DNA of 64,000 bases from Lachnospiraceae bacterium (GTDB lineage Bacteria > Bacillota > Clostridia > Lachnospirales > Lachnospiraceae): NCBI GenBank assembly GCA_900199595.1, contig FZRB01000002.1, positions 1 through 64,000 of the forward strand. The letters run 5' to 3'. The first letter of the stretch is position 1, and each line of letters opens with the position of its first letter. Below are positions 17,121-61,586 of this stretch, one piece after another. Made by a program: the position numbers and the translations under genes. Under the pieces are notes generated by a model. That model had not been told where the DNA came from. It saw nothing but the letters and a program-made list of their open reading frames with translations, and did no database searches.

Positions 17121-18958
17121 TTTTTCTCCCCTTCATCATAATTCCAGGTTCCTATCTGGTAATGCTCTATCCCCTCGACTGTAATATATATCTTAAACGT
17201 AAGATCATTTATGTCTGATTCCTTTGCTTTTATATATGCTACAGTTGAAAACTTAGCAGGATTATCCGGGTCCTCCCTGCTTTCCATTACATACTCGGCT
17301 GTATCTCCGGTTTTATTATTAATTACCTCAAGCTCTGCCTTCTGAAGTGAAGCCTGTTTTATCGATCTTATTCCGCCCTGTCTCACTGATAATTCATCAG
17401 GATTATCAGTTGTATTGACGAAGATCTTTGCTTTTTTCATTTTATCCAGACTGTCAGTTGTTATCTTAATATCGCCCAGCTTATCCATAAATGTAGATGG
17501 AAGGCTGACCCTGTCTGAACATACTTCAGCACCATACTCTTCTATAAGTGTCTTTTCATCAGAATAAAGATTAACGCCTATTCCAAGTTTATTTCCCTCT
17601 ATTTCTGCACCCATTGCAGCAAGGGTTGTAGGGAACAGATCAAGTGTTGAGTATTGTCTTTCTTTATTATTCTCAGATCCTTCTTCAGCTTCAGCAGCAC
17701 TGTTGATTATACAGGTATATGTTTTTCTCTGATATTTCTTATCAACATCGTCAGTAAAATCCGGATCCATGGTAGGATGATCACCGGTTATTATTATAGT
17801 CGTATCATCATAAAAATCCTGCTGCTGTATCCATCTGACAAATTCCACAGTCTGCTTGCTTGAGCAGGCGAATACATTTGCATACTGGTTATCACCGTAG
17901 GTATCCCCACAGAGATCACATATATATCCATCAGGAAAATGCGTATCAACCGTAAGAAGTGTCAGATTAAAAGGCTTATCTCCACCGGACATTTCCGTCA
18001 GCTGTTCCTTTGCATATTCAAAGAGCTTCTCATCCTCGTAGCCCCACCATACATAGTAATCCTCAGGAATCTTTCCTTCCTTTATTGCCCATTTATAATC
18101 CTTCATGGCATAGCCGCCATGCTGTTTAAAATAAGTTTTTCTTCCTCCGAACTTTGCCTCTGATCCTAGAAGAAGTCTCTGGTCATACCCCTCTTCCTTA
18201 AGTATATCTCCAAGAGCAGTTACTCCGGAGAAAAAGTCATCCTGACCGGCCATAGAATTAGCTCCCAGAGATATCTGAAGCGGAAGTCCGGAAGTTATTC
18301 CAAACATAGCTCCCATAGTCCAGTCAGTGCCGGGCAGAGATATGCCACCATTAATTGTGTCTCTGGAGCCTGAAAAGGATGTGTTTTCCTTTGCCAGCTC
18401 GGTGAGCTCCGGTATACAGCCCTTATCAAAAGCTCCGCCGGACTCTTTGTCTGTAAATGTAACCTCAGCAGATTCAAGATAGATAAAAACCAGATTCCTC
18501 TTTTTTTCAGGAAAGCTAATATCTACATCCTTGGGATCCGTGTAATTTGCTTCTATAAAATCCTCGCCCTGAAACTTCTTTGCTTTAAGATAATTTACAG
18601 CATAAGAGAATACTCCAACGTTTCTTTCTATCCTGAAGATACTGAAAGCGATCATCCCTATACCGAGCACTGCCATTAATATATAGACAGGCTTTGTTTT
18701 TTCCTTTTTTATTGCCATTATCAGAGTAATGATCATCATTACAACAACAGCCAGAGCCGGAATCAGATATTTAATTATATAGTTTCTGATCATCTCAGGA
18801 CTGGTTCCGTTAAGGGGAGCCAGTATATGGTATAAAACCTCTGCCGCCGTAAGATTAGACCACGTTCTCAGCAGCCATATATGAGAGAAAAACAGAACGG
18901 TAGCAAATAAAAACAATATAATTATAATTGCTTTCACTATGCCTTTAAGTATCTTCAC
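17105..18958 (-). CDS. LTA-synthase-like phosphoglycerol transferase, paralogue A
   Basis: A 617-residue membrane enzyme of the LtaS/MdoB alkaline-phosphatase superfamily. Three to four membrane segments occupy 1-110 and an extracellular sulfatase-fold domain about 150-480. Expected metal and nucleophile positions are Glu162 in FIYLES, a Thr in PGTDWTMG (about 211-214), the Asp/His of TVDTHFPDG, and ITGDHPTMD. Such enzymes move glycerol phosphate from phosphatidylglycerol onto a lipid-linked chain or a glycan. Inside a polysaccharide operon it more likely decorates the glycan than builds free LTA (inference). A C-terminal beta-type domain (about 490-617) is extra. GTG start at 18958; 12 nt separate it from paralogue B. 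Confidence 0.87.
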   Translation of the reverse strand: MKILKGIVKAIIIILFLFATVLFFSHIWLLRTWSNLTAAEVLYHILAPLNGTSPEMIRNYIIKYLIPALAVVVMMIITLIMAIKKEKTKPVYILMAVLGIGMIAFSIFRIERNVGVFSYAVNYLKAKKFQGEDFIEANYTDPKDVDISFPEKKRNLVFIYLESAEVTFTDKESGGAFDKGCIPELTELAKENTSFSGSRDTINGGISLPGTDWTMGAMFGITSGLPLQISLGANSMAGQDDFFSGVTALGDILKEEGYDQRLLLGSEAKFGGRKTYFKQHGGYAMKDYKWAIKEGKIPEDYYVWWGYEDEKLFEYAKEQLTEMSGGDKPFNLTLLTVDTHFPDGYICDLCGDTYGDNQYANVFACSSKQTVEFVRWIQQQDFYDDTTIIITGDHPTMDPDFTDDVDKKYQRKTYTCIINSAAEAEEGSENNKERQYSTLDLFPTTLAAMGAEIEGNKLGIGVNLYSDEKTLIEEYGAEVCSDRVSLPSTFMDKLGDIKITTDSLDKMKKAKIFVNTTDNPDELSVRQGGIRSIKQASLQKAELEVINNKTGDTAEYVMESREDPDNPAKFSTVAYIKAKESDINDLTFKIYITVEGIEHYQIGTWNYDEGEKKWIAE

Positions 18959-18970: not shown

Positions 18971-20788
18971 TTATTCTGACCATTCATATACTTTATAGTG
19001 ATTTATATTCTGTGTAGTAAAATATATTCTGACTTTTATATTATTTATTTCAGACTCAGGAATATCCGTTTTGCTCTTTACCGAGAATTTATTCGGATCA
19101 TTTTCCTTTGGCTTGATAGTCATATCGTACTTCTTCACCTCACCGGATTTTTTATTTTCAACCTCCAGCTCAGCCTTAAGAAGACTGGTTACATTTATCG
19201 ACCTTACCTGAGGCAGCGATATATCCAGGGTTCCGCTATCATTAGCCTTTACTTTTATATCTGTTTTCTGAATATTATCCAGAGTTTTTGTTGTAATAAC
19301 TATATGACTCAGTCTGGTCATAAATGCAGATGGCGTTCCTACATTCGCATCCAGTTCTTTTACATTGCTTTCCTCCAGAAGCGTCTTCTTATCTGAGAAA
19401 AGATTTGTTCCAAGTCCCAGTCTGTCACCTTCTATATCTACGCCCATGGCTGCAAGAGTTGTCGGAAACATATCAAGGGTGGTATAGCTTCTGTCTGTAT
19501 CTAACTCAGGCTCAGCTGCACTATTAATAAATGATACATATGTCCTTCTCAGATAATCATCTGATATAGCCTTGCAGAAATTCTTATCCATAGTCGGATG
19601 ATCACCTACAAGAACAACTGTCGTATTATCATAGAAATCCTGCTGCTGTATCCATCTGACAAAATCATAGGTCTGACGACTGGAGCAGGCGAACACATTT
19701 GCATACTGATTATCACCGAATTCATCCCTGCAGAGATCACATACCCATCCATCCTCAAAATGCGTATCAACCGTAAGAAGTGTAAAGTTGAAAGGCTCGT
19801 CCTTCTTTGCAAGCTCTGTCAGCTCTTCTCTGGCATAAGTAAAGAGCTTTTCATCCTCATAGCCCCACCATACAAAATAATCCTCAGGAATCTTTCCTTC
19901 CTTTATGGCCCAGTTATAGTCCAGAAGCTCATAATTTCCATGCTGACTGAAGTAAGTATCTCTACCACCGAACTTAGCCTCTGAACCAAGAAGAAGGTAA
20001 TTATGATATCCTTCGTCCTCAAGAATATCTCCCAGGGATATCATATCAGGGAAAAATGACTCTTCCTTAGACATGGCATTTCCGCCTATAGAAACCTGCA
20101 GGGGAAGTCCAGAGGTCTGGGCAAACATGGCACCCATAGTCCAGTTCGTTCCTGAAAGTGAAACTCCGCCTTCCAGAGTATCATTCTTTCCTGAAAAATC
20201 CTCTCCTTCTCTGGCAAGCTCCGTCAGCTCAGGGATATAATTATCGTCAAAATATCCTCCGGACTCTTTATCTGTAAAAGTCATTTCAACAGATTCCAGA
20301 TATATGTATATAAGATTCCTCTTCTTTTCAGGGAACGTAAGCTCCGCGTCTTTAGGATCAACATAGTTTTCACCGATGAAATCCTCTCCGGAGTTTGTAG
20401 TAGCAGCTATATAGGATCTGATATATGATATAAATCCAAGTTTTTTCTCCAGCAGCATACCCGAAAGGAAAAACAACCCCAATGCACCAATAAAATAAAG
20501 AATATAAACTATCTTAGCTTTTGCCTTTTTATGAGCATAAAGAGCAATGATCACGGCAATAGCCATAACTACAATAACCGGAATCAGATACTTGATTATA
20601 TAACTCACGATCATCTGTGGATTTGTGCCCTCCAGAGACTGGGTGAGGTGATATATAACCTCCGAGGCCGTAAGATCAGACCATGTTCTGAGAAGCCATA
20701 TTTCTGTGGCAAATATAAATCCCGACAGAAAAACAAAAACCAGAATAAGTATTTTTATTATCTTTTTAATTATATCCTTAGACTTCAT
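18971..20788 (-). CDS. LTA-synthase-like phosphoglycerol transferase, paralogue B
   Basis: A 605-residue paralogue of the next gene in the operon, alike along its whole length (both share TEIWLLRTWS/SHIWLLRTWS, IPEDYxVWWGYEDEKLF, and the VFACSSRQT/VFACSSKQT stretch). Membrane segments lie in 1-115; the catalytic domain spans about 150-475 with IYIYLESVEM, SGTNWTMG, TVDTHFEDG and LVGDHPTMD. A Cys pair (CDLC) after the DTHF motif is kept in both copies and may form a disulfide or metal site. The C-terminal beta-type region (about 485-605) ends in YKVYEWSE. The tandem copies suggest successive additions or two acceptor sites on the same polymer. Confidence 0.87.
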   Translation of the reverse strand: MKSKDIIKKIIKILILVFVFLSGFIFATEIWLLRTWSDLTASEVIYHLTQSLEGTNPQMIVSYIIKYLIPVIVVMAIAVIIALYAHKKAKAKIVYILYFIGALGLFFLSGMLLEKKLGFISYIRSYIAATTNSGEDFIGENYVDPKDAELTFPEKKRNLIYIYLESVEMTFTDKESGGYFDDNYIPELTELAREGEDFSGKNDTLEGGVSLSGTNWTMGAMFAQTSGLPLQVSIGGNAMSKEESFFPDMISLGDILEDEGYHNYLLLGSEAKFGGRDTYFSQHGNYELLDYNWAIKEGKIPEDYFVWWGYEDEKLFTYAREELTELAKKDEPFNFTLLTVDTHFEDGWVCDLCRDEFGDNQYANVFACSSRQTYDFVRWIQQQDFYDNTTVVLVGDHPTMDKNFCKAISDDYLRRTYVSFINSAAEPELDTDRSYTTLDMFPTTLAAMGVDIEGDRLGLGTNLFSDKKTLLEESNVKELDANVGTPSAFMTRLSHIVITTKTLDNIQKTDIKVKANDSGTLDISLPQVRSINVTSLLKAELEVENKKSGEVKKYDMTIKPKENDPNKFSVKSKTDIPESEINNIKVRIYFTTQNINHYKVYEWSE

Positions 20789-20795: not shown

Positions 20796-22730
20796 CTAAA
20801 GCTTTTCTTCTTTTCTTTCTGTATTTTCCGAAGCCTTTACCAGCTTACCACAACATACCAGCAGCATATTAAATATAAGCAGCATAAACATAGGCATCGT
20901 ATATCTGAAATTCCCTCCTGCCGGAGATATAACTAGTATAAGTATAGACAGAATCGTAATCAGAAGTGGATACAGCTTTCCATACTGTCTGTTTCTTATC
21001 ACTAGTAGAATCATAAATATCGAAAACATAGTATATGTACCGACACTCATTATGACATTAATAACCGGAATTCTCTGAATAAAGAAAATCAGCTTATAAC
21101 CTATCTTCTGAATCTTCGGAAAAGCTCCGCCGACGTAAAGTTTATTATCCTCGTCAATACGGTTCCAGAAATAGGTATATGCCATTTTGGACATTCTTGA
21201 TACATCAAAGAATCCAAACGCATTATTAATAACCGCATCTATGTAACATACAGGATGCTTCCTGAACATGGAGAAAAATGCGTCGAAATATCCCTTCATG
21301 TCTTCAGATGTACTCAGCTGATTAAATGTGAACTTAACGGGATCCTGAAGCTGAGCACTATAAAGCTCCGGAAGCTTATCATAATCCAGAACTTTGCTGA
21401 TAGCCTCCTTCTCTTCTTTGGTCACCTCATCAGGATACTCCTTTATATATCTTGCTGTACACTGGAACAGAGCACCAAGCATTTCCTGTTTTCCACCTGA
21501 AGCAACCTTTGCCGCAGGAAGAATCAGCATAGACCAGATAAATATAAAGAACACTACAGGAATACCAAAGGATATTAACAGCTTCAATATATATTTTCTA
21601 TATGCTATCAGACTGACAACAAGAATAACTATAAGGAAATATACACCCTGATTCTTTGTAAGCGTAAACAGAGCAGATATGAGCATCATACAGATAACAA
21701 ATTTCCACGATCTGAGACACTCTCCCTTTGTTCTGAATATCTCACACATCATAAGCGTTAGTATGATATAAGTCAGAGCAAACATGGTATCCTTCAGCAT
21801 ACAGATACTGTATAGAGGATATAACGGACATATCGAAAGAAAAACCAGAAGCCCGGTTTTCAGCTTATTATTCATGCCCAGTTTTTCAAAGTAACATATA
21901 GTATAGCTGAATACTCCTGCATACAGAACCATCTGAATAAATGTATAGATACCGACTCCAATATCTATATTTCCAAATACATTTACTCCCAGCTTGGCAA
22001 AAAGTCCGAAAACTATCGTAGTAAAAAAAGGATGCATATTTGTTATATACATATCCTCTGTAACATTCGGGGAATAATCGAGAAGCATGTCCTTTCTTTC
22101 ATGGAAAAACATGATTATCTGTCTGGACGTATCTCCGTTTCCTGTTCCCGGAAACAAAAGTATATAATAAGGCAGCCAGCACAGGAGCATGATGAGCATA
22201 TATTTAAGCATATGCTTCTTTGTATCATATTCCTGCATCTGTCTGTCGAAGAAAGCATTCTTATCTACCAGGAGATCGTATTTTTTCAGAACGATCCTGG
22301 TTACATGAAACCACACTATCATGTAACCGGCTGTATAGAAAAAGGCTCTTATAAAAACAAATGCAGAAACACGTATAAAATCCGCCGAATTATTTGTATC
22401 GAAGGATAAAGCGATTATCTGCATTATGCTGAAAAAGGCCGCGAAAAAACCGGCCATTATATTATCTCTTTTTGTGTATGTAAATCTCTTTGAATAAAGA
22501 ATAAGAACAAGTATAGCTATTATAACAAAAGACAGATATATCCTGTTGGGGTTAATAACAAGAACCATACGAAATATGGCTCTCATAAATGCCGGAAACT
22601 TCTCCATATAGGAATCCAGCTCGACATAAAGCCCCGTCATATCACAGGTAAGACCTACAGCCGCTATAACTGCTGCGATTATGGAAAGAATTATATCTAT
22701 TATTGATATTTTTTCTTTTTTTTCATTCAT
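20796..22730 (-). CDS. DUF6020-family polytopic membrane protein, GT-C-like
   Basis: A 644-residue protein with about 12-14 membrane segments. The stretch LLFPGTGNGDTSRQIIMFFHE, followed by an extracytoplasmic loop with TNMHPFFTTIVFG, matches what I recall of DUF6020 membrane proteins from Lachnospiraceae. The acidic/His loop after the first membrane pairs is typical of GT-C glycosyltransferases, which use polyprenyl-phosphate sugars outside the membrane. That would pair it with the polyprenyl-phosphate glycosyltransferase encoded 21 nt upstream. Function inferred, not shown. Confidence 0.7.
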   Translation of the reverse strand: MNEKKEKISIIDIILSIIAAVIAAVGLTCDMTGLYVELDSYMEKFPAFMRAIFRMVLVINPNRIYLSFVIIAILVLILYSKRFTYTKRDNIMAGFFAAFFSIMQIIALSFDTNNSADFIRVSAFVFIRAFFYTAGYMIVWFHVTRIVLKKYDLLVDKNAFFDRQMQEYDTKKHMLKYMLIMLLCWLPYYILLFPGTGNGDTSRQIIMFFHERKDMLLDYSPNVTEDMYITNMHPFFTTIVFGLFAKLGVNVFGNIDIGVGIYTFIQMVLYAGVFSYTICYFEKLGMNNKLKTGLLVFLSICPLYPLYSICMLKDTMFALTYIILTLMMCEIFRTKGECLRSWKFVICMMLISALFTLTKNQGVYFLIVILVVSLIAYRKYILKLLISFGIPVVFFIFIWSMLILPAAKVASGGKQEMLGALFQCTARYIKEYPDEVTKEEKEAISKVLDYDKLPELYSAQLQDPVKFTFNQLSTSEDMKGYFDAFFSMFRKHPVCYIDAVINNAFGFFDVSRMSKMAYTYFWNRIDEDNKLYVGGAFPKIQKIGYKLIFFIQRIPVINVIMSVGTYTMFSIFMILLVIRNRQYGKLYPLLITILSILILVISPAGGNFRYTMPMFMLLIFNMLLVCCGKLVKASENTERKEEKL

Positions 22731-22751: not shown

Positions 22752-23696
22752 TTAATTACGATTAGTCTTTTTCATGAATTCATCGTATATGTTCTTCAGA
22801 TTCATCTCAAAATCCTGTTTATTCTTCTGGACGATTGATGAAAGAAGAAGTCCATTAAAGAGGCTTATGATAGCAGATATTATTACAAAGCCGCACACAA
22901 TCAGCGTCGGGAATTTATCCACAAGACCGGTATTCAAATAATCTATAAACACCGGAACAAAGAATATAGCTGCCAGCACTGTGAGCAGTGCAGCAAGTAT
23001 TCCGAAAAATGCAAACGGCCTGTATATTCTGAACAGTCTGATGATAGTAAAAATAACCTTCATTCCGTCTGAATATGTATTCAGCTTGGATTCACTTCCT
23101 TCAGGTCTGTCTCTGTAATCAATTACAACATTTTCCAGAAACATTCTCTTGTCTATAGCATGGATGGTCATTTCTGTTTCTATCTCAAAACCATTTGAGA
23201 GAACCGGGAAGGACTTCACAAACATATAGGAAAATGCTCTGTAGCCCGTCATTATATCCTTAATGTCTGAATTAAACAGAAGATTGATGCTCTTTTGAAC
23301 AAGGGAATTTCCAAAGTTATGGAATGGTCTTTTGTTCTCCTCGTAATAGGTCGAAGAAAGTCTGTCTCCTATGACCATATCCACCTTTCTTTCAAGCACC
23401 TTATCAACCATCTCTCTGGCATGCTCTGCCGGATAGGTATCATCTCCGTCTACCATGATATAGGCCTGGGCATCTATTTCACGAAACATCCTTCTGATAA
23501 CATTTCCTTTACCCTGCTGATATTCGTATCTGACTACTGCTCCGGCGGCCTTGGCTATTTCATCTGTACCGTCGGTTGAATTGTTGTCATAAACATATAT
23601 AACAGCCTCAGGAAGAACCTTCCTGAAGTCCTTTACGACCTTTTCAATTGTTTTGCTTTCATTATAACAGGGTATAAGTACCGCTATCTTGTCCAT
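22752..23696 (-). CDS. Polyprenyl-phosphate GT2 glycosyltransferase (DPM1/GtrB type)
   Basis: About 314 residues from the ATG at 23696 (GGAG 7 nt upstream); the longer reading adds 13 implausible residues. A GT2 domain (about 1-225) starts with KIAVLIPCYNESKTIEKVV and contains YDNNSTDGTDE, the DxD in VDGDDTYP, and DIMTGYRAFS with GFEIETEMTIHA. Two C-terminal membrane helices (about 230-300) anchor it. This class loads a sugar from a nucleotide donor onto undecaprenyl phosphate on the inner face. A GtrA-type flippase candidate is encoded at 30689-31123, so together they could supply lipid-linked sugar for side-chain decoration of the surface polymer. Confidence 0.88.
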   Translation of the reverse strand: MDKIAVLIPCYNESKTIEKVVKDFRKVLPEAVIYVYDNNSTDGTDEIAKAAGAVVRYEYQQGKGNVIRRMFREIDAQAYIMVDGDDTYPAEHAREMVDKVLERKVDMVIGDRLSSTYYEENKRPFHNFGNSLVQKSINLLFNSDIKDIMTGYRAFSYMFVKSFPVLSNGFEIETEMTIHAIDKRMFLENVVIDYRDRPEGSESKLNTYSDGMKVIFTIIRLFRIYRPFAFFGILAALLTVLAAIFFVPVFIDYLNTGLVDKFPTLIVCGFVIISAIISLFNGLLLSSIVQKNKQDFEMNLKNIYDEFMKKTNRN

Positions 23697-23714
23697 CCAT
23701 ATTCTCCGATTGAC

Positions 23715-23734
23715 TGTCCCGTAAACCTGGGACA
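23715..23734. other. Intercistronic hairpin
   Basis: TGTCCC and GGGACA face each other across an 8-nt loop in the gap between the stop at 23738 and the ATG at 23696. No U-tract follows, so it is more likely an RNA processing or stability element than a terminator. Confidence 0.5.
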
Positions 23735-23737
23735 CTC

Positions 23738-24556
23738 TTATAATTTGTTATCAGTTGGTGACTGGAGCAATATAGTAATCCTTGAGGAATTACCGTAATT
23801 ATCTGCCAGTGTCGCAGTTATAGTATAGTTATACTTTGCCTTAAGAGTTCCTATAGATATTGATTTAAGCTTCGTAGTTGTTGAATAATTTGTTTTGCTG
23901 TATTCATAGCCTGTACATTCATTTTCGCAGGACATTCTTACTACTCTCCAGCCTGCAGCAGGAGTTATCTTGAACTTTGCCTTCTTTGCAGCAACGCTGT
24001 CATATGTAACCTTACCATAGCCCTTGCTGAAATCAATCTTTGAAGAAATATCTGCTCCGGATTCAACACCTGTTATCGTAAGCTTGGTTATCGGCGACTT
24101 AAACTCATCGATATATAAAACTGTAGTGTAGGTGGTTCCGTCTATTTCATAAGTAATATTTGTATTTCCAGCTGAATAAACTCTTACTCTTATTGTGTAG
24201 GAATAACTTGCAGAAGAACTCTTCTTTGACTTGGAATCAACCTTTGCAGTTGAACTGGTGTAGGAACGTCTGGTATATCCGGTAACCTTTCCAACTGCAG
24301 GATTACTGCTCTTCACAGTTCCTTTTGTTATCTTCTGATCCTTTGTAAGTCCGGTTATTTCCACAGTTGCAGTATTATTCTTTGATTTTGGATTATAGTA
24401 TCCGTAGGTTTTATCTTTTATTCTAAGTCCGGCCGCTTCTGAAACAGGAGCAGGCATAACAACCATCAGTATGACAAAGGCTATCATAACTGCCAGCACT
24501 TTATGACATATTTTAATATATTTGCTCATATTTTTATCTTTTGTATATTTATTCAT
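23738..24556 (-). CDS. Small secreted beta-domain protein, family member 2
   Basis: A 272-residue exported protein with a signal peptide (about 1-42, ending VSEAAG). The mature part holds two beta-rich modules, Ser/Thr/Lys/Tyr-rich and without catalytic motifs. The second module (about 150-272: ITKLTITGVESGADISS, then ITPAAGWRVVRMSCENECTG, then LKSISIGTLKAKYNYTI) aligns in order with the upstream gene's protein (VKTLKIKGVKSGKNIAS, then ITPKSGWTVEKVVYNCSSTG, then ISSLSLGTLYKSKTYLI). They are therefore paralogues. A third relative is encoded at 57472. Role unknown; placement suggests a surface or polymer-binding function. Confidence 0.75.
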   Translation of the reverse strand: MNKYTKDKNMSKYIKICHKVLAVMIAFVILMVVMPAPVSEAAGLRIKDKTYGYYNPKSKNNTATVEITGLTKDQKITKGTVKSSNPAVGKVTGYTRRSYTSSTAKVDSKSKKSSSASYSYTIRVRVYSAGNTNITYEIDGTTYTTVLYIDEFKSPITKLTITGVESGADISSKIDFSKGYGKVTYDSVAAKKAKFKITPAAGWRVVRMSCENECTGYEYSKTNYSTTTKLKSISIGTLKAKYNYTITATLADNYGNSSRITILLQSPTDNKL

Positions 24557-24593: not shown

Positions 24594-25382
24594 TTAGTAA
24601 ACGCCCTGTATCTTCAGTGAATTACTGATGCAATAGCTAAGAGTTTCTCTGACTCCGCTGGTGTTAACAAAGGTTATATCTATCAGATATGTCTTACTCT
24701 TATAGAGTGTTCCAAGTGATAAAGAACTGATTTTTATCGTAGATACCTCTCCGTTCTTTCTGACTGTATTCTTTTTAGTTTTGGTAACTCCGGTGCTGCT
24801 GCAGTTATATACAACCTTCTCAACTGTCCATCCGGACTTTGGGGTAATACTCAGAGTTGATCCACTTGCCTTGGCTCCGGAAAAATTAACGTAATTAACT
24901 GATTTTGTTTTGGAAGCTATATTCTTTCCACTCTTAACACCCTTTATTTTCAGGGTCTTTACAGGATTGGTGTACTTAACAACCTTTACCTTAGTGGAAT
25001 ATGTTTCTCCTCCCACTTTGAAGGTTATTACAGTGGTACCCTTTTTCTTAAGCTTAAGATCAATGGTATAAGAATAGGTATTTCCACTGTCCTCATTTTC
25101 CTCATCCTCAATTATCTCATTTTCGCTTTCCTGAGTTTCCCTTGTGATGCTGTATATAGATGCAACTGAGGTTTTACTGCTTGTTACATCAGCCTTTTTA
25201 ATTGTTTCAGAAGCAAGAAGATCATCCACATATATGCTTGCTATCTGATTCTTCTCGTACATTACAAGGGTAACGCTCTCCTCATAAGTAGGAGCTGCTT
25301 TCGCAGGAATTGTGGGGATAATAGACGCTGCCACAATAAGGGCAAGCGCTAAGCTCACTAGTTTTTTCTTAATACTTATCAT
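24594..25382 (-). CDS. Small secreted beta-domain protein, family member 1
   Basis: A 262-residue exported protein with a signal peptide (1-28, ending IPAKAAP). Two beta-rich modules are seen: residues about 30-135, with an acidic insert (SENEIIEDEENEDSGN), and about 140-262, starting NPVKTLKIKGVKSGKNI. It is paralogous to the next gene, with matching order of the TLxIxGVxSG, ITPxxGW and SLGTLYKxK landmarks. No enzyme motif is visible. It follows the ligase-nitroreductase gene, where dlt operons of other Firmicutes carry the extracellular partner DltD, but it is not a DltD homologue by eye. Confidence 0.75.
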   Translation of the reverse strand: MISIKKKLVSLALALIVAASIIPTIPAKAAPTYEESVTLVMYEKNQIASIYVDDLLASETIKKADVTSSKTSVASIYSITRETQESENEIIEDEENEDSGNTYSYTIDLKLKKKGTTVITFKVGGETYSTKVKVVKYTNPVKTLKIKGVKSGKNIASKTKSVNYVNFSGAKASGSTLSITPKSGWTVEKVVYNCSSTGVTKTKKNTVRKNGEVSTIKISSLSLGTLYKSKTYLIDITFVNTSGVRETLSYCISNSLKIQGVY

Positions 25383-25453: not shown

Positions 25454-27523
25454 TCATATATATCTTATAACATTTGTTTTCTTTTGAAGCTTTGCTCCTT
25501 CGTGATCACTGTAGCCCAGAGCTACCGATGACCACACTGTATGATTTGCGGGTATACCGAAACTGTCCAGAACACTCTTCACCGGTTCTGTATTTCTAAG
25601 AGTCTTAAGTGGGTTAAGCCATACTGCTCCAAGGCCGTAGGAATGAGCAGCAAGCAGTATATTTTCAGCCGCACAGGAAGCATCCTGACAACTGTTCGGA
25701 TTTCTGTCATCATTGGATACCAGGATCATAACCTTCGGATTCTCAAAGCCATATACTACTACCGACTCTTTTTTCGCAGCTTCAAGCGCAGCCTGCTTCA
25801 GATTTTCTATATCACTTTTCTTTGTAAGAACCGTGAATCTCCAGGACTGCATATTATGTCCGCTGGGCGCATGACAGGCAGCCTTAAGTATCATATCCAG
25901 TACATTTCCGGGAATATCCTTATCTGTAAATTTTCTGATACTCCTTCGCGAAAGAATTGCCTGCATCACAGGATTCATAAGTTCAAGATCATCCTTATGC
26001 TCCAGCATTTCTCTAAGCTTGTTTCTATCTATTTTCTGCATCCGGTTTCGAGGTATCTCTTCAACCACTATAAACCTTTTAGGAAGCTTATACTTTTCCA
26101 TTCTTTCAGAAAGAAACTTAATAAACTCCTGTTCATTATAACTGCTATTAACGGATATGAAAAGTACAGGAATCTGTCCCAGTATGTTATCAGGATCAGC
26201 AGCACCCAGACAGGCACATTCATTTATGCCCGGATACGTTCCTGCTATATCCTCAACCTCTATAGGTGATACCTTCTCACCTCCGACATTAATTATATCA
26301 TCGGCTCTTCCGAGCATATATACATAGCCATCATTATCCGTGTATATCATATCTGAGGTAAGCAGCCAGCCAGCCTTCAGAGTCTGACGGGATAGTTCAT
26401 CATTATTCCAGTAACCCGCCATGATCATATCACCTTTTATGGACATTCGTCCCGGATGATCCATATCACTTTCTATTACATTTCCATCGGCATCCAGAGT
26501 TCTGACCTCTATTCTTCCGGAAAGAGGCTTTCCAAGAGAAGCTATTCTTTGCGGATGCATTACTACGTCAGTTACATCACAGAATATTGCGCCTCCGGAC
26601 TCGGAACTCCCCCAGGTATTATAGATCTGAACACCGGGCAGAAGATCTGATATCTCACGTCTCTGTTTCGGAGTGAGCGATCCCGCTCCAAACTCTATAT
26701 ATCTTAAGCCTCCCAGAATTCTCGGAAGCTCGCCCTGCATCTGACTCTTCATAACCTCATAGGAGGCAGGCACAGCAGCCATGGTGTTACAGCCGAATTC
26801 TTCAATATTCTTTTCCACTTCTTTAGCAAATGTAAATCCATTCTGAAGTACAAGAGTCGCACCCTTATATAGAACTGCCCTCAGTACACGAAGCGCAAAG
26901 GAATGATTAAGCGGAAGCGGCATCAACAGTATGTCGTCCTCCCTCACACCTATACCTTCTATGGTATTGGAAAAAATATTATATACGGATTTGTATGAAA
27001 GGATAACTCCTTTGGGTTTTCCCGTTGTTCCGGTAGTGAAAAGGATTTCGGATATATCCTCAGGTTCCCTGGTGATACTCATGCCGGAGGACTGAATATC
27101 TTCAGGACTGACCAACATTTCCTTCTCAAGCGATTGAATCACCTGGGCATACAGCTGTCTTAAAGAAACCTTTCTGCATTTATCTTCATAATCTTTAACA
27201 GGCTTATCCGTAAGCATTATAATACTACCGGATTCCATATATATGTCATACATATTTCCGGCAGTACTGTTTTTATCAAGATAAACACTTATCGCACCAA
27301 TCAGCTGGAGCGCCAGATAGGTAACTGTCATTTCAGGCTTGGAAACTGCCGAAAAGGAGACTCTGTCTCCCTTATCAATGCCCAATCCTTTTAATTCCTT
27401 AGCCATTAAGAAGGCCGCCGAGAACAGTTCTCTGTAGGTAAGCGATTCCTTCTTAAAGATAACAGCCGTTTTTGAGCCGTTCTTTACACTCAGCTCATAT
27501 ATCCTGTTTACAAGAGTATCCAT
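25454..27523 (-). CDS. Adenylating acyl/aminoacyl ligase fused to a nitroreductase domain
   Basis: 689 residues from the ATG at 27523 (GGGGGAG upstream). Residues 1-510 are an ANL-superfamily adenylation enzyme: phosphate loop LFTTGTTGKPKGVIL (about 161-175), YNTWGSSESGG (about 301-311), TSDMIYTDNDGYVYMLGRADD (about 389-409), the hinge GGEKVSPIEVEDI, and a C-terminal QKIDRNK lysine. Such enzymes activate an acid as acyl-AMP and load it on a carrier protein. Residues about 517-689 form a complete FMN nitroreductase-type domain: RRSIRKF, APSGHNMQSWRF, LGAVWLNPL. The next genes encode an acyl carrier protein and an MBOAT, as in dlt operons; the fused flavin domain is not part of the usual dlt set. 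It could oxidise or reduce the carrier-bound group. Substrate unknown. Confidence 0.88.
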   Translation of the reverse strand: MDTLVNRIYELSVKNGSKTAVIFKKESLTYRELFSAAFLMAKELKGLGIDKGDRVSFSAVSKPEMTVTYLALQLIGAISVYLDKNSTAGNMYDIYMESGSIIMLTDKPVKDYEDKCRKVSLRQLYAQVIQSLEKEMLVSPEDIQSSGMSITREPEDISEILFTTGTTGKPKGVILSYKSVYNIFSNTIEGIGVREDDILLMPLPLNHSFALRVLRAVLYKGATLVLQNGFTFAKEVEKNIEEFGCNTMAAVPASYEVMKSQMQGELPRILGGLRYIEFGAGSLTPKQRREISDLLPGVQIYNTWGSSESGGAIFCDVTDVVMHPQRIASLGKPLSGRIEVRTLDADGNVIESDMDHPGRMSIKGDMIMAGYWNNDELSRQTLKAGWLLTSDMIYTDNDGYVYMLGRADDIINVGGEKVSPIEVEDIAGTYPGINECACLGAADPDNILGQIPVLFISVNSSYNEQEFIKFLSERMEKYKLPKRFIVVEEIPRNRMQKIDRNKLREMLEHKDDLELMNPVMQAILSRRSIRKFTDKDIPGNVLDMILKAACHAPSGHNMQSWRFTVLTKKSDIENLKQAALEAAKKESVVVYGFENPKVMILVSNDDRNPNSCQDASCAAENILLAAHSYGLGAVWLNPLKTLRNTEPVKSVLDSFGIPANHTVWSSVALGYSDHEGAKLQKKTNVIRYI

Positions 27524-27573
27524 ATACTCCCCCTTTTTAAGTCCTCCCATTCAAAGGAAGACAGGATGACGTT

Positions 27574-27798
27574 CTACTGCAGTCTTGTGACCATGTCAGC
27601 AAGTCCCTTAATAGAGTTAAAATTCTCCTCAACTATTTCTTCGTACGGAATAGTAATTCCAAACTCCATGGTAAGAGTTGCTATGATTCCTGTTATAGTA
27701 AGGGAATCAAGGATTCCATCATCAACCAAAGCATCTGATGCAGTAAAATCAACATCAGGAAATTCATTACTGAGTAATTCTAATATTTTTTCTTCCAA
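27574..27798 (-). CDS. Acyl carrier protein (DltC-like)
   Basis: A 74-residue acidic helical protein with the phosphopantetheine attachment serine in DDGILDSLTITG (Ser about 32), typical for acyl or D-alanyl carrier proteins. Start is TTG at 27798 (AAGGAG nine nt upstream); no in-frame ATG would leave the carrier site intact. It lies between the MBOAT gene (upstream) and the adenylation-nitroreductase gene (downstream), so it most likely accepts the acyl group from the ligase and presents it to the MBOAT. A standalone carrier in a surface-polymer operon parallels dltC. Confidence 0.88.
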   Translation of the reverse strand: MEEKILELLSNEFPDVDFTASDALVDDGILDSLTITGIIATLTMEFGITIPYEEIVEENFNSIKGLADMVTRLQ

Positions 27799-27849
27799 TT
27801 TCTTATCTCCTTATCTTCTTCCGAACCAGGTTCACTGCTGTCATCTTTT

Positions 27850-29385
27850 TTAATACTGACTATAAACAAATGCATCCGAGCTGTAGCCCGGTCCATATAT
27901 ACCGAATATAATGATAGCAAATATTAATGCAAAATATAATATCCATCTAAGCACTATCGGATATGCTGCTACTGTTTCTCTTATATTGTCTCCCTTTTCC
28001 TGACGGAAGCTGATGAAAAACAGAACAAGAAGTGCAAATATCAGACAGCACATGTTCTGTCTGGAAAGTCCTGCATTAAAGAGTTCTCCGTCAAAGAATA
28101 TCCAGGGATTAAAATCTCTGAAAAAGGACTTCACCATGGCTCCGCTCACTCTGAGACTTCCAGGAGCAGTAAGCAGCCTTCCACCGCAGAAAACAAAAAA
28201 GGTTCTTATTCTCTGCCAGCGCTTCCAGCCCGCAGACTCAGAATTTATATGCAGTCTCTCATTCAGCTTTTTTATCTCAGGAGCCCAGACCGTAGATATG
28301 ATTATCAGAACTCCCCAGTAAAGTCCCCAGACTATATAGCCAATTCCGGTTCCGTGCCAGAGTCCCGTAAGCAGCCACACTGCAAGAAGCGGAATAACTG
28401 TCATTATATTCTTTCCGGCTCTTGTTCCTCTTTTCTCTCTTACCTTTTTTCCTATACCGGTAAGCCAGGGGCTAAGGACCAATGGCATATATACATAATC
28501 CTTAAACCATGCTCCCAGTGTTATATGCCACCTTCTCCAGAATTCTGCAGCAGAGGTACTGAAAAACGGTCTTTTGAAGTTTTCCGAAAGCGTAACTCCA
28601 AAGCATTCAGAAACACCCAAAGCTATATCCATACATCCCGAAAAATCTGCATACAGCTGAACAGCTGAAACAACTACAGCCAGAAAATAAAAAATACCTG
28701 AATAAGCAAGATGGTTTCCAAATACAGCTTTAGTCATAAGTGCGGCTCTGTCCGCAATAACCATCTTCTTAAACAGTCCCCAGAGCACTCTCTGAAGGCC
28801 AAAGGTCACTCTTTTATAGTCAAATTCATGTCCCTCCAGAAGCTGTGTCTGAAGAGCCTTATGCCTTGGAATCGGTCCTTCCACTATCTGCGGAAAATAT
28901 ATAGAATACAGCATCAGATGAAGTATATTCTTTTCAGCAGCTGTCTTACGCCAGTATACGTCGGCCATATATCCAACGAGCGCAAATGTGAAGTAGGATA
29001 TTCCCAGCGGTATCAGAACATCTATAGTAATAGTATGTCCCATTATCACTCCGGACAGTCCGGATAGTGCCTTTGACGCTATCTTAAAAAACACAAGCAT
29101 TCCCACAATTATTATGGTACCAATTATGAGAACCGGTTTTGCTTTTTTCTTTTGTTCGTTTTTATCCTTTGAAGCATCCTCATATACAGATGATATCTTT
29201 CTTCCTGTCAGAAATGCAGTGAGCACAGCCAGCAAAAGAAAAATCACCTTTAGAGCCCCGCCATATATATAAAAGGCGAGGCTCGAAAGAAGAAGTACTA
29301 TCCATCTGTACCTTAACGGCAGCAGAAAATATAATATAAATGTTGCTGCAAGCAGCAGAAAAAATGTAAACGAAATGAATGACAT
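27850..29385 (-). CDS. MBOAT-family O-acyltransferase (DltB/AlgI-like)
   Basis: A 511-residue polytopic membrane protein with about 10-12 membrane segments. MBOAT landmarks are YFPQIVEGPIPRHKAL, ADFSGCMDIALG, AEFWRRWHITLGAWFKDYVYMPL and the catalytic-type His in LLTGLWHGTGIGYIVWG. DltB and AlgI relatives pass an acyl group from a cytoplasmic thioester across the membrane to a cell-surface polymer. With the carrier protein (51 nt downstream) and the ligase fusion it completes a dlt-like acylation module. The polymer is likely that made by this operon; the acyl group is unknown. Confidence 0.92.
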   Translation of the reverse strand: MSFISFTFFLLLAATFILYFLLPLRYRWIVLLLSSLAFYIYGGALKVIFLLLAVLTAFLTGRKISSVYEDASKDKNEQKKKAKPVLIIGTIIIVGMLVFFKIASKALSGLSGVIMGHTITIDVLIPLGISYFTFALVGYMADVYWRKTAAEKNILHLMLYSIYFPQIVEGPIPRHKALQTQLLEGHEFDYKRVTFGLQRVLWGLFKKMVIADRAALMTKAVFGNHLAYSGIFYFLAVVVSAVQLYADFSGCMDIALGVSECFGVTLSENFKRPFFSTSAAEFWRRWHITLGAWFKDYVYMPLVLSPWLTGIGKKVREKRGTRAGKNIMTVIPLLAVWLLTGLWHGTGIGYIVWGLYWGVLIIISTVWAPEIKKLNERLHINSESAGWKRWQRIRTFFVFCGGRLLTAPGSLRVSGAMVKSFFRDFNPWIFFDGELFNAGLSRQNMCCLIFALLVLFFISFRQEKGDNIRETVAAYPIVLRWILYFALIFAIIIFGIYGPGYSSDAFVYSQY

Positions 29386-30671: not shown

Positions 30672-30690
30672 GACTATCCTAGTGATAGTC
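30672..30690 (-). terminator. Rho-independent terminator after GtrA gene
   Basis: Stem GACTATC/GATAGTC with a 5-nt loop, followed on the minus strand by TTTTTCTTTT. It overlaps the stop codon of the GtrA-family gene and divides the exporter unit from the acylation/glycosylation unit. Confidence 0.85.
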
Positions 30691-31123
30691 ATTCCTCTTT
30701 TTTATTCTTGTTAAATACAAAGAATTTACTGAAAATGTAATTCGCCACCATTACGATGACCTGAACAACAAGTTTCATTATCTTATCATTCATACCGAGG
30801 ATTGTAACAAATAAAAGCATTATTCCCTGTTCCATAAGAAGCGTTCCTACTCTGGCAGCAAAAAATGCAATCGCTTCTCCGAGAATCTTCGGATTCTTAC
30901 TTTCAAATACATATTTCCTGTTTGTGAAATATGCAAAGGTAACAGCTGCTATCCAGGCCAGAACGATAGCAGCCTGAAGCTGAAAACCATTTTTCGGATC
31001 AAGAAATGTAAAGACACAGCCGTAATATACAACAAAATTAACCAGTGTTGTAAGAACTCCCACAATAAAGTAATTAACTATCTCTTTATATTTCAAGTAT
31101 AGATCCTTGATAAATGCAATCAC
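30689..31123 (-). CDS. GtrA-family membrane protein
   Basis: About 144 residues with four membrane segments and the GtrA signature (YFIVGVLTTLVNFVVYY near the start, AVTFAYFTNRKYVFESK in the middle). GtrA proteins are proposed to flip or assist polyprenyl-phosphate-linked sugars and to pair with GtrB-type transferases, here perhaps the enzyme at 22752. GTG at 31123 is preferred (AAAGGGG eight nt upstream); a TTG two codons earlier is too near that site. It closes the ABC exporter unit. Confidence 0.85.
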   Translation of the reverse strand: MIAFIKDLYLKYKEIVNYFIVGVLTTLVNFVVYYGCVFTFLDPKNGFQLQAAIVLAWIAAVTFAYFTNRKYVFESKNPKILGEAIAFFAARVGTLLMEQGIMLLFVTILGMNDKIMKLVVQVIVMVANYIFSKFFVFNKNKKEE

Positions 31124-31149
31124 CGTCAAATCCCCTTTAATATGATTAA

Positions 31150-32355
31150 CTACTGCTCAGTTTCCACAGTATCCTCAGCACAGAATTTATATACTCCTAT
31201 ACTGCTGGTTATAGGTATATCTCTTTGATAAAAATTAATATATAAATCATGATATCCGTATTTATCGTGATAAACCTTAAGCCCCTCTATTTCCAGATCA
31301 TCACGTCCCAGATCCTGTTTCTTAACTGTAAGCTGTGGAATAATATTTATAATTCTTTCAAACTGCTTTTTTGTTATTCTCTTCTGCTTTGTCTTACCCA
31401 TCTTCTGGGTCTTATATTTTGTAACATATATCTTTGCTCCCCTGCCAAGATATCCTCCGCATATATACAGTGTATTATCCAGTATACAGAAGCTTTGATA
31501 TGTTTTATACGGGTATGCATTTATCTGAAGATTTGCCAGCTGCCACTTTGCAGCATTCTTCATATCAAATGCCAGACCGTCTTCAGTTTTATTAAGCGCT
31601 TTATTTATTTTTTTATAATTATAAATCAGATATCTTATCTCACCGTTCGTAAATTCTACCCTGAAGGCTATCTGATTATTTTCTACGTCAATTGAAACAT
31701 TCACTCTGTTTGGCATATATATGCCGTTCTGGTCACTGAAACGGGTAGCCTTTCCCTTTTTATTGACATTTGTCCATTTGAAGTTGGAAAGCCTTACAAC
31801 ATTGGTTATGATACCAACATCATTCACAACCTCATAAGTGATTCTTGCTATCTGAAGTCCGTAAAAACCACCTGTAGGCTTTGTTGCAACCCATATATCA
31901 TAGGTTTCTACATTAAGATCAGGCTGAGTGATATCAATTGTTTCACCGTGTCCGAAATTAGCAAGAACTGTTGTTTCAATAAAATTCGCTTTTGCAGTGG
32001 ATTTTATCGTCCCAGGCATTCTGCATCTTGAAAGAAGCGTATGTCTCTTACCACCGCTTCTGCCCTCTGATGTAGTAAAAACGTATTTACCATCCGGTGT
32101 ATACGCAAAATTCTGAATAGTACTCGGTGTGAGCTTCTCTCCGTTGTACTCCTTTATAGGGCTGTTTTTACCATTATACGGCATACCCTTAAATGTAAAC
32201 TGCTTACCTGCCTCCAGCACATCCGGTGTCAGGTTGGAAAAAATAGTATCACTTTCGTCTTCCGCAGCAAAAGAAGGCATATTAAAAGCAGAAAATGTAA
32301 TACATGCTGCAAGTATAACTACTATGAATTTTTTTATATTTTTGTGTAACTTCAT
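31150..32355 (-). CDS. Secreted helveticin-J-like beta-propeller protein, paralogue 2
   Basis: A 401-residue exported protein with signal peptide (1-30, ending PSFAAED). It parallels the product of 29398 in order and spacing: KQFTFKGMPYNGKNS against KQFTMVNMPYNGTKS, QNFAYTPDGKYVFTTSEGRSG, NFGHGETIDITQ, YDIWVATKP and LYICGGYLGRGAKIY. The two differ mainly in the C-terminal third. It lies 31 nt after the ABC ATPase gene, so exporter and secreted protein are probably co-expressed. Likely a glycan- or wall-interacting protein; function not established. Confidence 0.65.
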   Translation of the reverse strand: MKLHKNIKKFIVVILAACITFSAFNMPSFAAEDESDTIFSNLTPDVLEAGKQFTFKGMPYNGKNSPIKEYNGEKLTPSTIQNFAYTPDGKYVFTTSEGRSGGKRHTLLSRCRMPGTIKSTAKANFIETTVLANFGHGETIDITQPDLNVETYDIWVATKPTGGFYGLQIARITYEVVNDVGIITNVVRLSNFKWTNVNKKGKATRFSDQNGIYMPNRVNVSIDVENNQIAFRVEFTNGEIRYLIYNYKKINKALNKTEDGLAFDMKNAAKWQLANLQINAYPYKTYQSFCILDNTLYICGGYLGRGAKIYVTKYKTQKMGKTKQKRITKKQFERIINIIPQLTVKKQDLGRDDLEIEGLKVYHDKYGYHDLYINFYQRDIPITSSIGVYKFCAEDTVETEQ

Positions 32356-32386: not shown

Positions 32387-33352
32387 CTATTTAATATTAA
32401 ACTCCTGATAAAGAGCCTTTCTCTCCTCATCTTTCATTTTATCAATCTTCTTTAACCATCTCTTCTGTCTGTCCATAAGCGCCTCATTCATGATCATTTC
32501 ATCATTATGATTTTCAACTCTTTCTCTTTCAGACATCTTAATAAACAGATTATATCTTCGAGATGATTCAATTATTTCTTCCATACCGGAAGGAACAACT
32601 CTCTTCTTCTTTGGAATGGAAAGGAATACCTCATATGCATCACATATAGCTTTAGTATCCCCGAATGCAATCTGATTTCCATGATCCAGCCATAGTACCT
32701 TATTGCACATTTCTCTTACCTGACTCACCGAGTGTGATACGAGAATTCCCGTAACACCTCTGTCAAGTATCTCTTTCATCCTGTCACGGCTCTTCTTTCT
32801 GAAGGAGCCGTCTCCTACACTCAGAACCTCATCCAGGATAATAATATCCGGATTAACCAGACATGCTATGGAAAAACCAAGTCGGCTCTTCATACCACTG
32901 GAAAGCTGTTTGAACATTCTGTCTTCAAATTCCTCCAGCTCAGCAAATTCGATGATCTCGTTATACTTTTCATCTATGAATTGTCTGGTATAGCCCAGAA
33001 GAGCTCCTCTTAAATATGTGTTTTCTTTAACAGTAAGATCTCCATCAAAACCGGAGGCCAGTTCCAGAAGCGCAGCCACCTTTCCTCTGGTTTTCACTGT
33101 TCCTTCAGTAGGAACCATAATTCCTGTAATCGCCTTGAGCAGTGTCGATTTACCGGCTCCGTTTGTACCTATGATACCGAGCATATCACCCTTTTCAAGA
33201 TCAAAGGTAATATTCTTATCAGCCCAGAATTTCTGAACCTCATAATTGCCTGTAATCTTTCTGACCACATACTCCTTGAAGCCTATATTTCTGAAATCAC
33301 CTGTAATATATGTAATTGAAACATTGTTTACTTCAACTGGTTTTGCTTTCAT
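32387..33352 (-). CDS. Polysaccharide/teichoic-acid ABC exporter ATPase (TagH/Wzt-like)
   Basis: A 321-residue nucleotide-binding subunit. Walker A GTNGAGKST near residue 62, signature QLSSGMKSRLGFSIA, Walker B DIIILDEVLSVGD and the switch His in LVSHS are all present, as expected of the TagH/Wzt/KpsT group. After about residue 245 it has a helical, charged extension (RERVENHNDEMIMNEAL) rather than a folded carbohydrate-binding domain. It powers export of a lipid-linked polymer with the permease encoded 16 nt upstream. Confidence 0.92.
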   Translation of the reverse strand: MKAKPVEVNNVSITYITGDFRNIGFKEYVVRKITGNYEVQKFWADKNITFDLEKGDMLGIIGTNGAGKSTLLKAITGIMVPTEGTVKTRGKVAALLELASGFDGDLTVKENTYLRGALLGYTRQFIDEKYNEIIEFAELEEFEDRMFKQLSSGMKSRLGFSIACLVNPDIIILDEVLSVGDGSFRKKSRDRMKEILDRGVTGILVSHSVSQVREMCNKVLWLDHGNQIAFGDTKAICDAYEVFLSIPKKKRVVPSGMEEIIESSRRYNLFIKMSERERVENHNDEMIMNEALMDRQKRWLKKIDKMKDEERKALYQEFNIK

Positions 33353-33368: not shown

Positions 33369-34139
33369 TTATACATAATATAAAAATCTCTTATTGTAGT
33401 GCTTATAGAACCAGCACCCTATTCCCAGAAAGAGCAGTGCATAGAAGAAACAAAGTCCATGATATGCAAGACTTGGTATATTTCCATCTATCACTATGGT
33501 TCTAAAATACTTGATATATACATACACCGGATTTGCCAGGAATGCTCTTCTTACATTCGGATTATCAAATCTGTCTACATAGTAGAAAATCGCTGATGTA
33601 TAAGTAAGCAGTGTAAGGAATATATCATACAGATACTCTATATCCCTGAAGAATACATATAGTGCAGAAAGAATCATTCCTATTCCTATATTCATTACCA
33701 CCAGACATACGATTGGAATGATCAGGCAGAAAAAGTTCATGTGAAATGTAATATGATCTGCCAGTACAAAAAGGAAATATATAATTATAGTCAGCCCAAA
33801 ATTGATCAGTGCTGAAACATTCTTTGAAAAAAGAAAGAGATACTTCGGTACATTTATCTTGGTAAAAATACTGGCATTACCAACAAGAGAAGACATTCCA
33901 CCCTTGGTAGATTCCTTATAAAAGGACATGACTATATTTCCACTGAAAAGATAAATGATATAATGCGGTGAATTTCTTCCGAAAAACTGAGTAAAAACCA
34001 GTGCCATTACAAGCAGATTTAAAAGCGGACTGAGCATACTCCAAAACATACCCAGAACCGTTCTTTTATATTTTTTCTTGAAATCTCTTTTTACGAGTTC
34101 CTCAAAAAGAAACTGATGCTCCTTAAGCTTTCGTATCAT
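33369..34139 (-). CDS. Polysaccharide/teichoic-acid ABC exporter permease (TagG/Wzm-like)
   Basis: A 256-residue ABC-2 type permease with six membrane segments. The cytoplasmic N-terminal FEELVKRDFKKKYKRTVLGMFWSMLSPL stretch is typical of TagG/Wzm proteins, and the end carries the usual GCWFYKHYNKRFLYYV. With the ATPase it forms a half-size dimeric exporter for a lipid-linked wall polymer. Its ATG at 34139 lies 16 nt inside the end of the EAL-fusion gene, so both are translationally coupled. Confidence 0.92.
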   Translation of the reverse strand: MIRKLKEHQFLFEELVKRDFKKKYKRTVLGMFWSMLSPLLNLLVMALVFTQFFGRNSPHYIIYLFSGNIVMSFYKESTKGGMSSLVGNASIFTKINVPKYLFLFSKNVSALINFGLTIIIYFLFVLADHITFHMNFFCLIIPIVCLVVMNIGIGMILSALYVFFRDIEYLYDIFLTLLTYTSAIFYYVDRFDNPNVRRAFLANPVYVYIKYFRTIVIDGNIPSLAYHGLCFFYALLFLGIGCWFYKHYNKRFLYYV

Positions 34140-55066: not shown

Positions 55067-55070
55067 TTTT

Positions 55071-61417: not shown

Positions 61418-61534
61418 TTGACTTTTGACACCATATGACATACGGAAACCGCTAATTTTCTACGAAAATTGCTATTTCCTCATGTTTCAGCGTGTCATAA
61501 AGTCAACAAGCTTTTCTTGCAAGCAAGAACGCTT
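61418..61534. repeat. Palindrome cluster in the cyclophilin leader
   Basis: Outer arms TTGACTTTTGACAC (61418-61431) and GTGTCATAAAGTCAA (61492-61506) enclose an inner imperfect palindrome (61444-61479, GGAAACCGCTAATTTTC facing GAAAATTGCTATTTCC). A further hairpin follows at 61508-61534 (AAGC, TTCTTGC-AA-GCAAGAA, GCTT). These fill most of the first half of the 353-nt gap 61395-61747; the rest (61587-61747) is AT-rich with no gene seen. Structured leader, or small mobile-element/MITE-like remnant. Confidence 0.6.
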
Positions 61535-61556
61535 TTTGACCTTTGACACTTATGTC

Positions 61557-61586
61557 ATATTATCATATTATCCTCTTTTATAACAA
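61557..61586 (-). promoter_or_regulatory. Candidate promoter of the cyclophilin gene
   Basis: Minus strand: -35 TTGTTA (61581-61586), 18-nt spacer, extended -10 TGATAATAT (-10 at 61557-61562). Implies a leader of about 155 nt. Confidence 0.5.

Follow-up and report, generated by a model that had tools for sequence, protein, structure and literature searches.

In the Dlt system, a ligase, a stand-alone carrier protein and an MBOAT acyltransferase work together, and the acyl group passes from the carrier to the outside through the tyrosine of a hexapeptide. According to PMC12148441, this hexapeptide, F-X-Y-X-X-F, is an acyl-shuttle motif: Dlt has it on DltX, whereas PatA-like systems carry it on the MBOAT. 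The MBOAT-SGNH pathways other than Dlt are described there as having no similar carrier protein. In nonribosomal peptide synthetases (NRPS), as PMC8795117 has it, Ox domains of the nitro-flavin mononucleotide (FMN)-reductase type act on carrier-bound groups beside adenylation domains. Here we analyze a module of a ligase-nitroreductase fusion, a carrier protein and an MBOAT, encoded side by side on the minus strand of a 64,000-nucleotide stretch from a Lachnospiraceae bacterium (GenBank assembly GCA_900199595.1, contig FZRB01000002.1, positions 1 to 64,000), referred to below as the window.

A preliminary description of this DNA proposed a non-standard acylation module, which its conservation supports well. 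In our judgment, the chances are about even that it is a carrier-fed MBOAT-SGNH system for acylating a surface polymer that is exported, with a loading enzyme that edits the acyl group by redox chemistry. The features of the module and of the gene directly upstream are as follows.

25454..27550, minus strand: ligase-nitroreductase fusion, a single 698-residue open reading frame (likely start ~27523)
26408..27484, minus strand: AMP-binding domain of the fusion, residues 23-381 (Pfam PF00501, 9e-59)
26033..26260, minus strand: AMP-binding_C domain of the fusion, residues 431-506, holding Lys506 (Pfam PF13193, 4e-11)
25511..25957, minus strand: FMN nitroreductase-type domain of the fusion, residues 532-680 (Pfam PF00881, 2e-26)
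27574..27798, minus strand: stand-alone acyl carrier protein, 74 residues, TTG start, DSL serine site
27850..29385, minus strand: MBOAT acyltransferase (Pfam PF03062, 1e-15)
27853..27870, minus strand: FVYSQY, acyl-shuttle hexapeptide at the MBOAT C-terminus (motif as defined in PMC12148441)
29398..30606, minus strand: propeller-like secreted protein, directly upstream of the MBOAT gene (predicted model and Foldseek)

Comparison with described systems

The module shares with Dlt the ligase, the stand-alone carrier and the MBOAT. Unlike in Dlt, the ligase here is of the acyl- or aryl-acid type and is fused to a flavin domain, the shuttle tail is on the MBOAT itself, and there is no DltD. With PatA/PatB-type MBOAT-SGNH O-acetylation it shares an MBOAT ending in F-X-Y-X-X-F/Y and, usually, a nearby SGNH-like gene, whereas a dedicated carrier and a ligase of its own set it apart. 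The donor of PatA is acyl-coenzyme A (acyl-CoA), but the adjacent carrier here suggests an acyl-carrier donor. Like the NRPS Ox domains of BmdC, EpoB and IndC, the flavin domain belongs to the nitroreductase superfamily and is associated with an adenylation domain and a carrier-bound unit. Those domains, according to PMC8795117, are either freestanding or inserted within or after modules, whereas here about 175 residues extend a stand-alone ligase at its C-terminus. The ligase part is matched best, in structure and sequence, by MenE, MatB and other acyl-CoA ligases, from which it differs in that its acceptor is probably the adjacent carrier.

As predicted from its genes, the module thus combines two features otherwise held separate, an MBOAT-borne shuttle tail and a dedicated carrier protein, because the tail is present in 75/75 family MBOATs and yet such a carrier is there.

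Recurrence and conserved linkage

A full-length fusion was found in 8 of 299 genomes of the family, its own included (7 of the 298 others), and in a phylum-wide sample of 398 genomes its own genome was the sole match at 1e-90. When the genome_contigs collection (84,980 species) was scanned with two ligase motifs, 102 relatives were found, of which the best 80 were kept and 22 were unseen; the motifs were chosen from fused proteins, and fused forms may be over-represented. Among these best 80 of 102, 68 are fused. Once repeats were removed (L030, L031, L032, L034 and L036, dropped before counting; loci are cited by our own numbers) and the window plus two more genomes of the family were included, the count came to 71 distinct fused loci. 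L064, L065, L070 and L074 are near-copies, as are L095 and L097, and L122, whose ligase frame is broken, was tallied as fused. The relatives (best 80 of 102) are mostly labelled Lachnospiraceae, Eubacterium or Clostridiales, with a few Synergistaceae/Synergistales, Gemmiger, Ruminococcus and Chloroflexi. Samples behind their records include sheep, cattle, buffalo, goat, reindeer and rabbit.

The domain order and neighbors hold up in other genomes, in many of which fusion, carrier and MBOAT are linked. Among the nearest relatives, L053 and L100 match the window in having an unbroken row of propeller gene, MBOAT, carrier and fusion; L055 does so from the MBOAT on, and the contig of L054 begins at the fusion. 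In 67 fused loci at least 300 bp of DNA is available upstream, and 50 of these have the carrier there on the same strand, no more than 250 bp away. Of 44 fused loci with enough DNA on both sides, 33 have an MBOAT no more than 2.5 kb from the fusion, and 27 have an SGNH-like gene at up to 4 kb. In the cultured Lactonifactor longoviformis DSM 17459 (L075), the genes for the fusion, the carrier, the MBOAT and the SGNH-like protein adjoin one another. The predicted parts of the module, their conserved linkage and their conserved motifs are evident at the level of sequence.

The plasmid collection gave no match at 1e-60. Open-licence papers in PubMed Central included none holding all, or three of four, of the architecture terms, and no title or abstract start naming such a fusion, which is no proof of novelty.

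Carrier protein and MBOAT

The PP-binding domain of the carrier scores 26.2 bits (Pfam cut-off 20.8), and its TTG start is preceded by an AGGAG box. A strict carrier-serine pattern matches 63 of 78 carriers; of the other 15, Asp-Ser or Glu-Ser is retained in 14, with Ser-Ser in L048. Of the 51 loci with every part of the module, 42 have a carrier that is closer to its counterpart in the window than the ligase is (median 75.7% vs 55.1%).

The MBOAT domain scores 58.2 bits (Pfam cut-off 27). The protein ends with FVYSQY, the shuttle motif with Tyr rather than Phe as its last residue. Family MBOATs were counted as those over 200 bits, found in 71 of 96 loci; all 75 have F-X-Y-X-X-[FY] at the extreme C-terminus, 59 with a final F, and 73 keep the histidine pattern (W or L, then HG).

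Ligase part of the fusion

The second ATG (~27523), nine codons in, is more likely than the first to be the true start of the fusion, because AAAGGGGGAG directly precedes it and relatives align from there. An AlphaFold2 model of the fusion (57 sequences) has a mean predicted local distance difference test (pLDDT) of 90 and a predicted template-modelling score (pTM) of 0.73. The ligase half matches MenE best (5gtd, TM-score 0.88 on target). Alignments of the fusion cover 57 of the 71 fused loci, without L033, L035, L054, L065, L070, L074, L082, L090, L092, L093, L097, L103, L122 and L131. Lys506, which we take to be catalytic, is invariant in the 57.

Amino-acid-activating domains carry in their A4 motif an Asp that binds the amino group. 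The A4 motif here is LPLNHSFALR, with Ser217 at the Asp position, and Ser217 is found in 70/70 fused ligases. The adenylation pocket, which had been singled out for prediction, is therefore unlike one for an alpha-amino acid. Arg221 and Glu286 align, in an NRPS adenylation domain, with what we take to be pocket-code positions 239 and 299, a tentative numbering. Ser217, Arg221, Arg224, Glu286 and Trp313 occur together in 70/70 fused ligases, in 13/14 unfused ligases that nest among them (see below) and in 0/14 outer unfused ligases, which have Tyr224 (12/14) and Gln286 (10/14) instead. Arg221, Arg224, Glu286 and Trp313 thus separate the ligase clade of the fusion from its outer relatives. The signature suggests a small polar acid as substrate and does not name it.

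A dicarboxylate was considered and rejected as the substrate of the fusion, since the transporter evidence for it concerns the outer unfused group, whose pocket differs at positions 224 and 286. A DASS/CitMHS carboxylate transporter lies by MBOAT-linked unfused ligases in 5 of 25 unfused loci (L040, L041, L043, L044 and L047). L091 holds both a fusion and an unfused ligase, with a CitMHS/DASS carboxylate transporter beside them. In L099, a sodium:solute symporter (Pfam SSF) and an unfused-type ligase are fused within a single frame (L099:3-2243), directly before a ligase-nitroreductase fusion; this transporter-ligase protein may import and activate the acid.

Flavin domain

As first described, a complete nitroreductase domain closes the ligase frame: it aligns with positions 1-167 of 167 of the PF00881 profile (2e-26; 93.6 bits, cut-off 23.5). 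By sequence it is closest to stand-alone nitroreductases, with 3ek3 first among solved structures. The 10 NCBIfam models that it matches include no SagB/McbC-type (thiazoline-oxidase) model. Arg535, Arg539 and Asn566, presumably FMN-site residues, are invariant in 57/57 aligned fusions, so that the predicted FMN site is likely active. In two loci a second, separate nitroreductase gene follows the fusion (L093:11093-11662 and L122:11079-11675).

Candidate SGNH-like partner

In the SGNH-like family, Gly59, Ser61 (motif GTSH), His289 and Asn291 (motif D-x-x-H-L-N) are invariant in 15/15 aligned members, and an N-terminal membrane anchor was judged by eye. No SGNH-like gene is near the module in the window, and one strong homologue is unlinked in the same genome (L144:8001-10139, contig C16, E 8e-114). 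It sits in a poly(glycerophosphate)-type polymer locus, by a gene resembling a poly(glycerophosphate) polymerase, and its neighbors comprise a pair of Glyphos_transf genes, LicD, IspD and an initiating sugar transferase. No MBOAT was found in the 20 kb around it, and the three MBOATs of the genome are all on other contigs.

Orthologues of the C16 gene, likewise unlinked, are present in 4/4 genomes nearest by their fusion (L053, L054, L055 and L100), 67 to 81% identical over aligned parts. The following Glyphos_transf gene is conserved in 4/4 and the LicD gene in 3/4, the fourth contig ending before LicD. Short MBOAT-profile hits of ~20 bits in two of these four stretches were taken as chance. 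In further fused genomes (L073, L089, L105 and L112), SGNH homologues are found in three, and none in that of L089 at 1e-10. We infer that the C16 protein would work in trans with the MBOAT of the window, and it may fill the role of the missing DltD. A likely acceptor would be a polyol-phosphate polymer. The propeller-like secreted protein was also tried as an SGNH stand-in and was dropped, its model being beta-propeller-like and an unlinked SGNH homologue having been found.

Proposed mechanism and its rivals

By homology, the ligase domain would adenylate a small polar carboxylic acid, not D-alanine, and load it onto the dedicated carrier protein. The attached FMN domain could then oxidise or reduce the carrier-bound acyl group, a step with less support. 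The MBOAT would move the acyl group across the membrane to the Tyr of its own FVYSQY tail. From there the SGNH-like protein, encoded elsewhere by polyol-phosphate-polymer genes, might pass it to a teichoic-acid-like or other exported glycan, the pairing in trans again having less support. The identities of the acid and the acceptor are likewise proposed with less support than activation, loading and membrane transfer. Redox editing itself is plausible.

Several findings weigh against this mechanism. The SGNH label rests on motifs plus weak Pfam hits (GDSL_2 in 7/15, DltD in 1/15 at E 0.0012); the SGNH profile found nothing better than E 0.028 among solved structures, that match being Ras; and the SGNH frame is interrupted in the genome of L100, one of the four nearest. 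An MBOAT is missing within 2.5 kb in 11 of the 44 fused loci, and a carrier within 250 bp upstream in 17 of the 67; in these 17 the carrier lies ~1 to 2.5 kb upstream in 6, downstream in 3, and none is in view in 8. The preliminary description had counted split and unlinked close homologues as a refutation. Most are not of that sort, but on the ligase tree (a quick search with SH-aLRT support, leaving out the broken frame of L122) 14 unfused ligases nest inside the fused clade, and no nitroreductase hit was found in the DNA examined around them. The flavin domain is therefore dispensable in some lineages, and a flavin step would not be required for the pathway as such. Nor does the predicted ligase pocket give a sign of a changed acyl group, because its signature is the same in fused and nested unfused forms. 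A change of Asn215 to His in the ligase was considered as tied to loss of the flavin domain; it goes in the right direction but is not significant (4/5 informative pairs, median p 0.375). A dispensable domain fits a tailoring step, and equally an accessory role.

In the strongest rival, which we consider unlikely though a serious contender, the module acylates the surface but the nitroreductase domain leaves the acyl group alone; its role would be in dimerisation or in redox gating of the ligase, or it would act on an unrelated small molecule. The tree needs 8 switches between fused and unfused states, of which well-supported branches force 7, with the remainder of the module retained; the unfused L127, beside the fused L109 on the tree, has the same SGNH-MBOAT-carrier order; and the ligase signature is unchanged upon loss (13/14). 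The simplest history of the fusion is one gain with several losses, though regains may have occurred. The FMN-site residues, invariant in every aligned fusion, argue against such a bystander domain. So does the retention of the fusion in NRPS, polyketide synthase (PKS) and other acyltransferase contexts, a better fit to a chemical than to a local regulatory role, and so does the second nitroreductase domain after the fusion in L093 and L122.

Fusion and carrier in other contexts

The fusion lies inside NRPS/PKS clusters in [Clostridium] polysaccharolyticum (L116), [Clostridium] aminophilum (L123) and a Ruminococcus metagenome-assembled genome (MAG; L128), a context in which it would be sensible to edit a unit bound to a carrier. 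Carrier and fusion are found by a PglD-type acetyltransferase and an aminotransferase in L111 (sugar-aminotransferase models below cut-off) and beside AT3 acyltransferases in L098 and L113. In L083 the fusion is beside an AT3 acyltransferase with an MBOAT, no carrier being in view. Because the fusion occurs in all these settings, the fusion and its carrier together resemble a supply unit, one that would feed several transferases.

A second rival, which we find improbable, is that the flavin domain acts on the free acid before adenylation, or that the loader serves mainly a cytoplasmic or other transferase (amino-sugar, AT3, NRPS), the MBOAT being one use among several. The L111 arrangement and the AT3 neighbors speak for it, but the run from the propeller gene through MBOAT and carrier to the fusion is uninterrupted in the window and in its nearest relatives wherever the contig reaches.

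If the redox-editing, MBOAT-coupled mechanism is right, it would add a third supply route for MBOAT-SGNH surface acylation to those of Dlt (carrier plus DltX) and PatA (acyl-CoA), with redox chemistry on the carrier changing the acyl group before export. Lachnospiraceae-like gut bacteria would then bear a surface decoration unlike the D-alanine one. The hosts of the module are gut bacteria, whose surface polymers meet the host immune system and phages. More tentatively, and on balance doubtfully, it may belong to a distinct class of surface acylation in gut Firmicutes, in which a mobile loader cassette (the fusion and its own carrier) would make a redox-edited acyl-carrier for MBOAT-SGNH systems, sugar acyltransferases and NRPS/PKS, the acyl group being undescribed so far. 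The acyl group should be directly readable in L. longoviformis DSM 17459, because this cultured strain has all four genes side by side.

Two observations concern gene order. L113, L115 and L125 have a similar order, with an FrhB/FdhB-like gene upstream of the fusion and the carrier downstream (the L113 gene by eye), spanning Lachnospiraceae and a Synergistaceae MAG; this suggests transfer between phyla or misbinned contigs. A gene between carrier and fusion (L060, L122), with a similar one behind the fusion in L098, looked GNAT/WecD-like by eye, a reading confirmed neither by Pfam (L060, L098) nor by NCBIfam (L060, L098, L122).

Relation to Dlt by family membership

The preliminary description matched the genes to the dlt plan of activating, carrying and transferring, and noted that no DltD is adjacent. 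The plan is supported, and the absence extends to the own genome, which has no match to DltD (PF04914; 2 of 14 control genomes, B. subtilis and L. lactis, were positive). Membership in Dlt does not stand. The fusion reaches 107.9 bits with DltA against the TIGR01734 cut-off of 559.85 and is only third best in its genome, no frame of which exceeds that cut-off. The MBOAT reaches 151 bits with DltB, the sole NCBIfam model it matches, against a TIGR04091 cut-off of 375, and the carrier 26.3 bits with DltC against a PRK05087 cut-off of 68. No DltX-like frame (25-150 codons ending F-X-Y-X-X-[FY]) was found within the window. By these predicted features, the MBOAT belongs to the type that carries a shuttle tail itself, and the module falls outside Dlt. 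We reject as highly improbable that a divergent Dlt system simply attaches D-alanine to teichoic acid here: the DltB and DltC models do score, but all three models stay under their cut-offs, the genome has no DltD, and the ligase lacks the amino-binding Asp.

Neighboring genes

On the minus strand, the genes are ordered as ABC permease, ATPase, propeller-like, GtrA-like, second propeller-like, MBOAT, carrier and fusion. The 3′ side of the fusion has two small secreted paralogues, a family 2 glycosyltransferase, a DUF6020 protein and two sulfatase-fold membrane proteins.

33369..34139, minus strand: polysaccharide ABC transporter permease, Wzm-like (NCBIfam NF050109, 67.6 bits, under the cut-off of 380)
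32387..33352, minus strand: ABC transporter ATPase, Wzt-like by neighborhood (Pfam PF00005; orthologue near the module in L053 and L100)
31150..32355, minus strand: paralogue of the propeller-like secreted protein 29398-30606 (42% identity)
30689..31129, minus strand: GtrA-like membrane protein (Pfam PF04138)
24594..25382, minus strand: small secreted protein 1 (adjoins the fusion also in L053, L054 and L100)
23738..24556, minus strand: small secreted protein 2, paralogue of small secreted protein 1 (kept in L054 and L100)
22752..23735, minus strand: family 2 glycosyltransferase, best model AglJ-like, below cut-off
20796..22730, minus strand: DUF6020 membrane protein (Pfam PF19484)
18971..20788, minus strand: sulfatase-fold membrane protein, paralogue of 17105-18958 (cross-hits, same cluster)
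17105..18958, minus strand: sulfatase-fold membrane protein (Pfam PF00884; best model phosphoglycerol transferase I, PRK12363, 183.9 bits vs cut-off 572)

The genes from the propeller-like gene (29398-30606) through small secreted protein 1 are probably co-transcribed, because the gaps between them are 12, 51, 23 and 71 bp. Promoter and terminator scans of the gene run were uninformative, with promoter-like sites as frequent as in shuffled sequence.

The flanking secreted proteins are as first reported. The propeller-like protein before the module is predicted to be mostly beta (pLDDT 76, 6 sequences), and the best Foldseek matches of its model, which we take to be beta-propellers, have low TM-scores (0.25-0.37 on query). 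The two small secreted proteins after the module align at 28% identity (E 1e-21).

Directly before the ABC transporter genes, window positions 34123-37431 encode a single protein that combines a LacI-type periplasmic-binding part with an EAL domain. Two more tandem membrane proteins, mutual paralogues with a sulfatase domain in the first, are encoded at 52997-57134, and a Clostridiales-1 RNA lies on the minus strand at 61426-61557 (Rfam RF01699, 63.6 bits).

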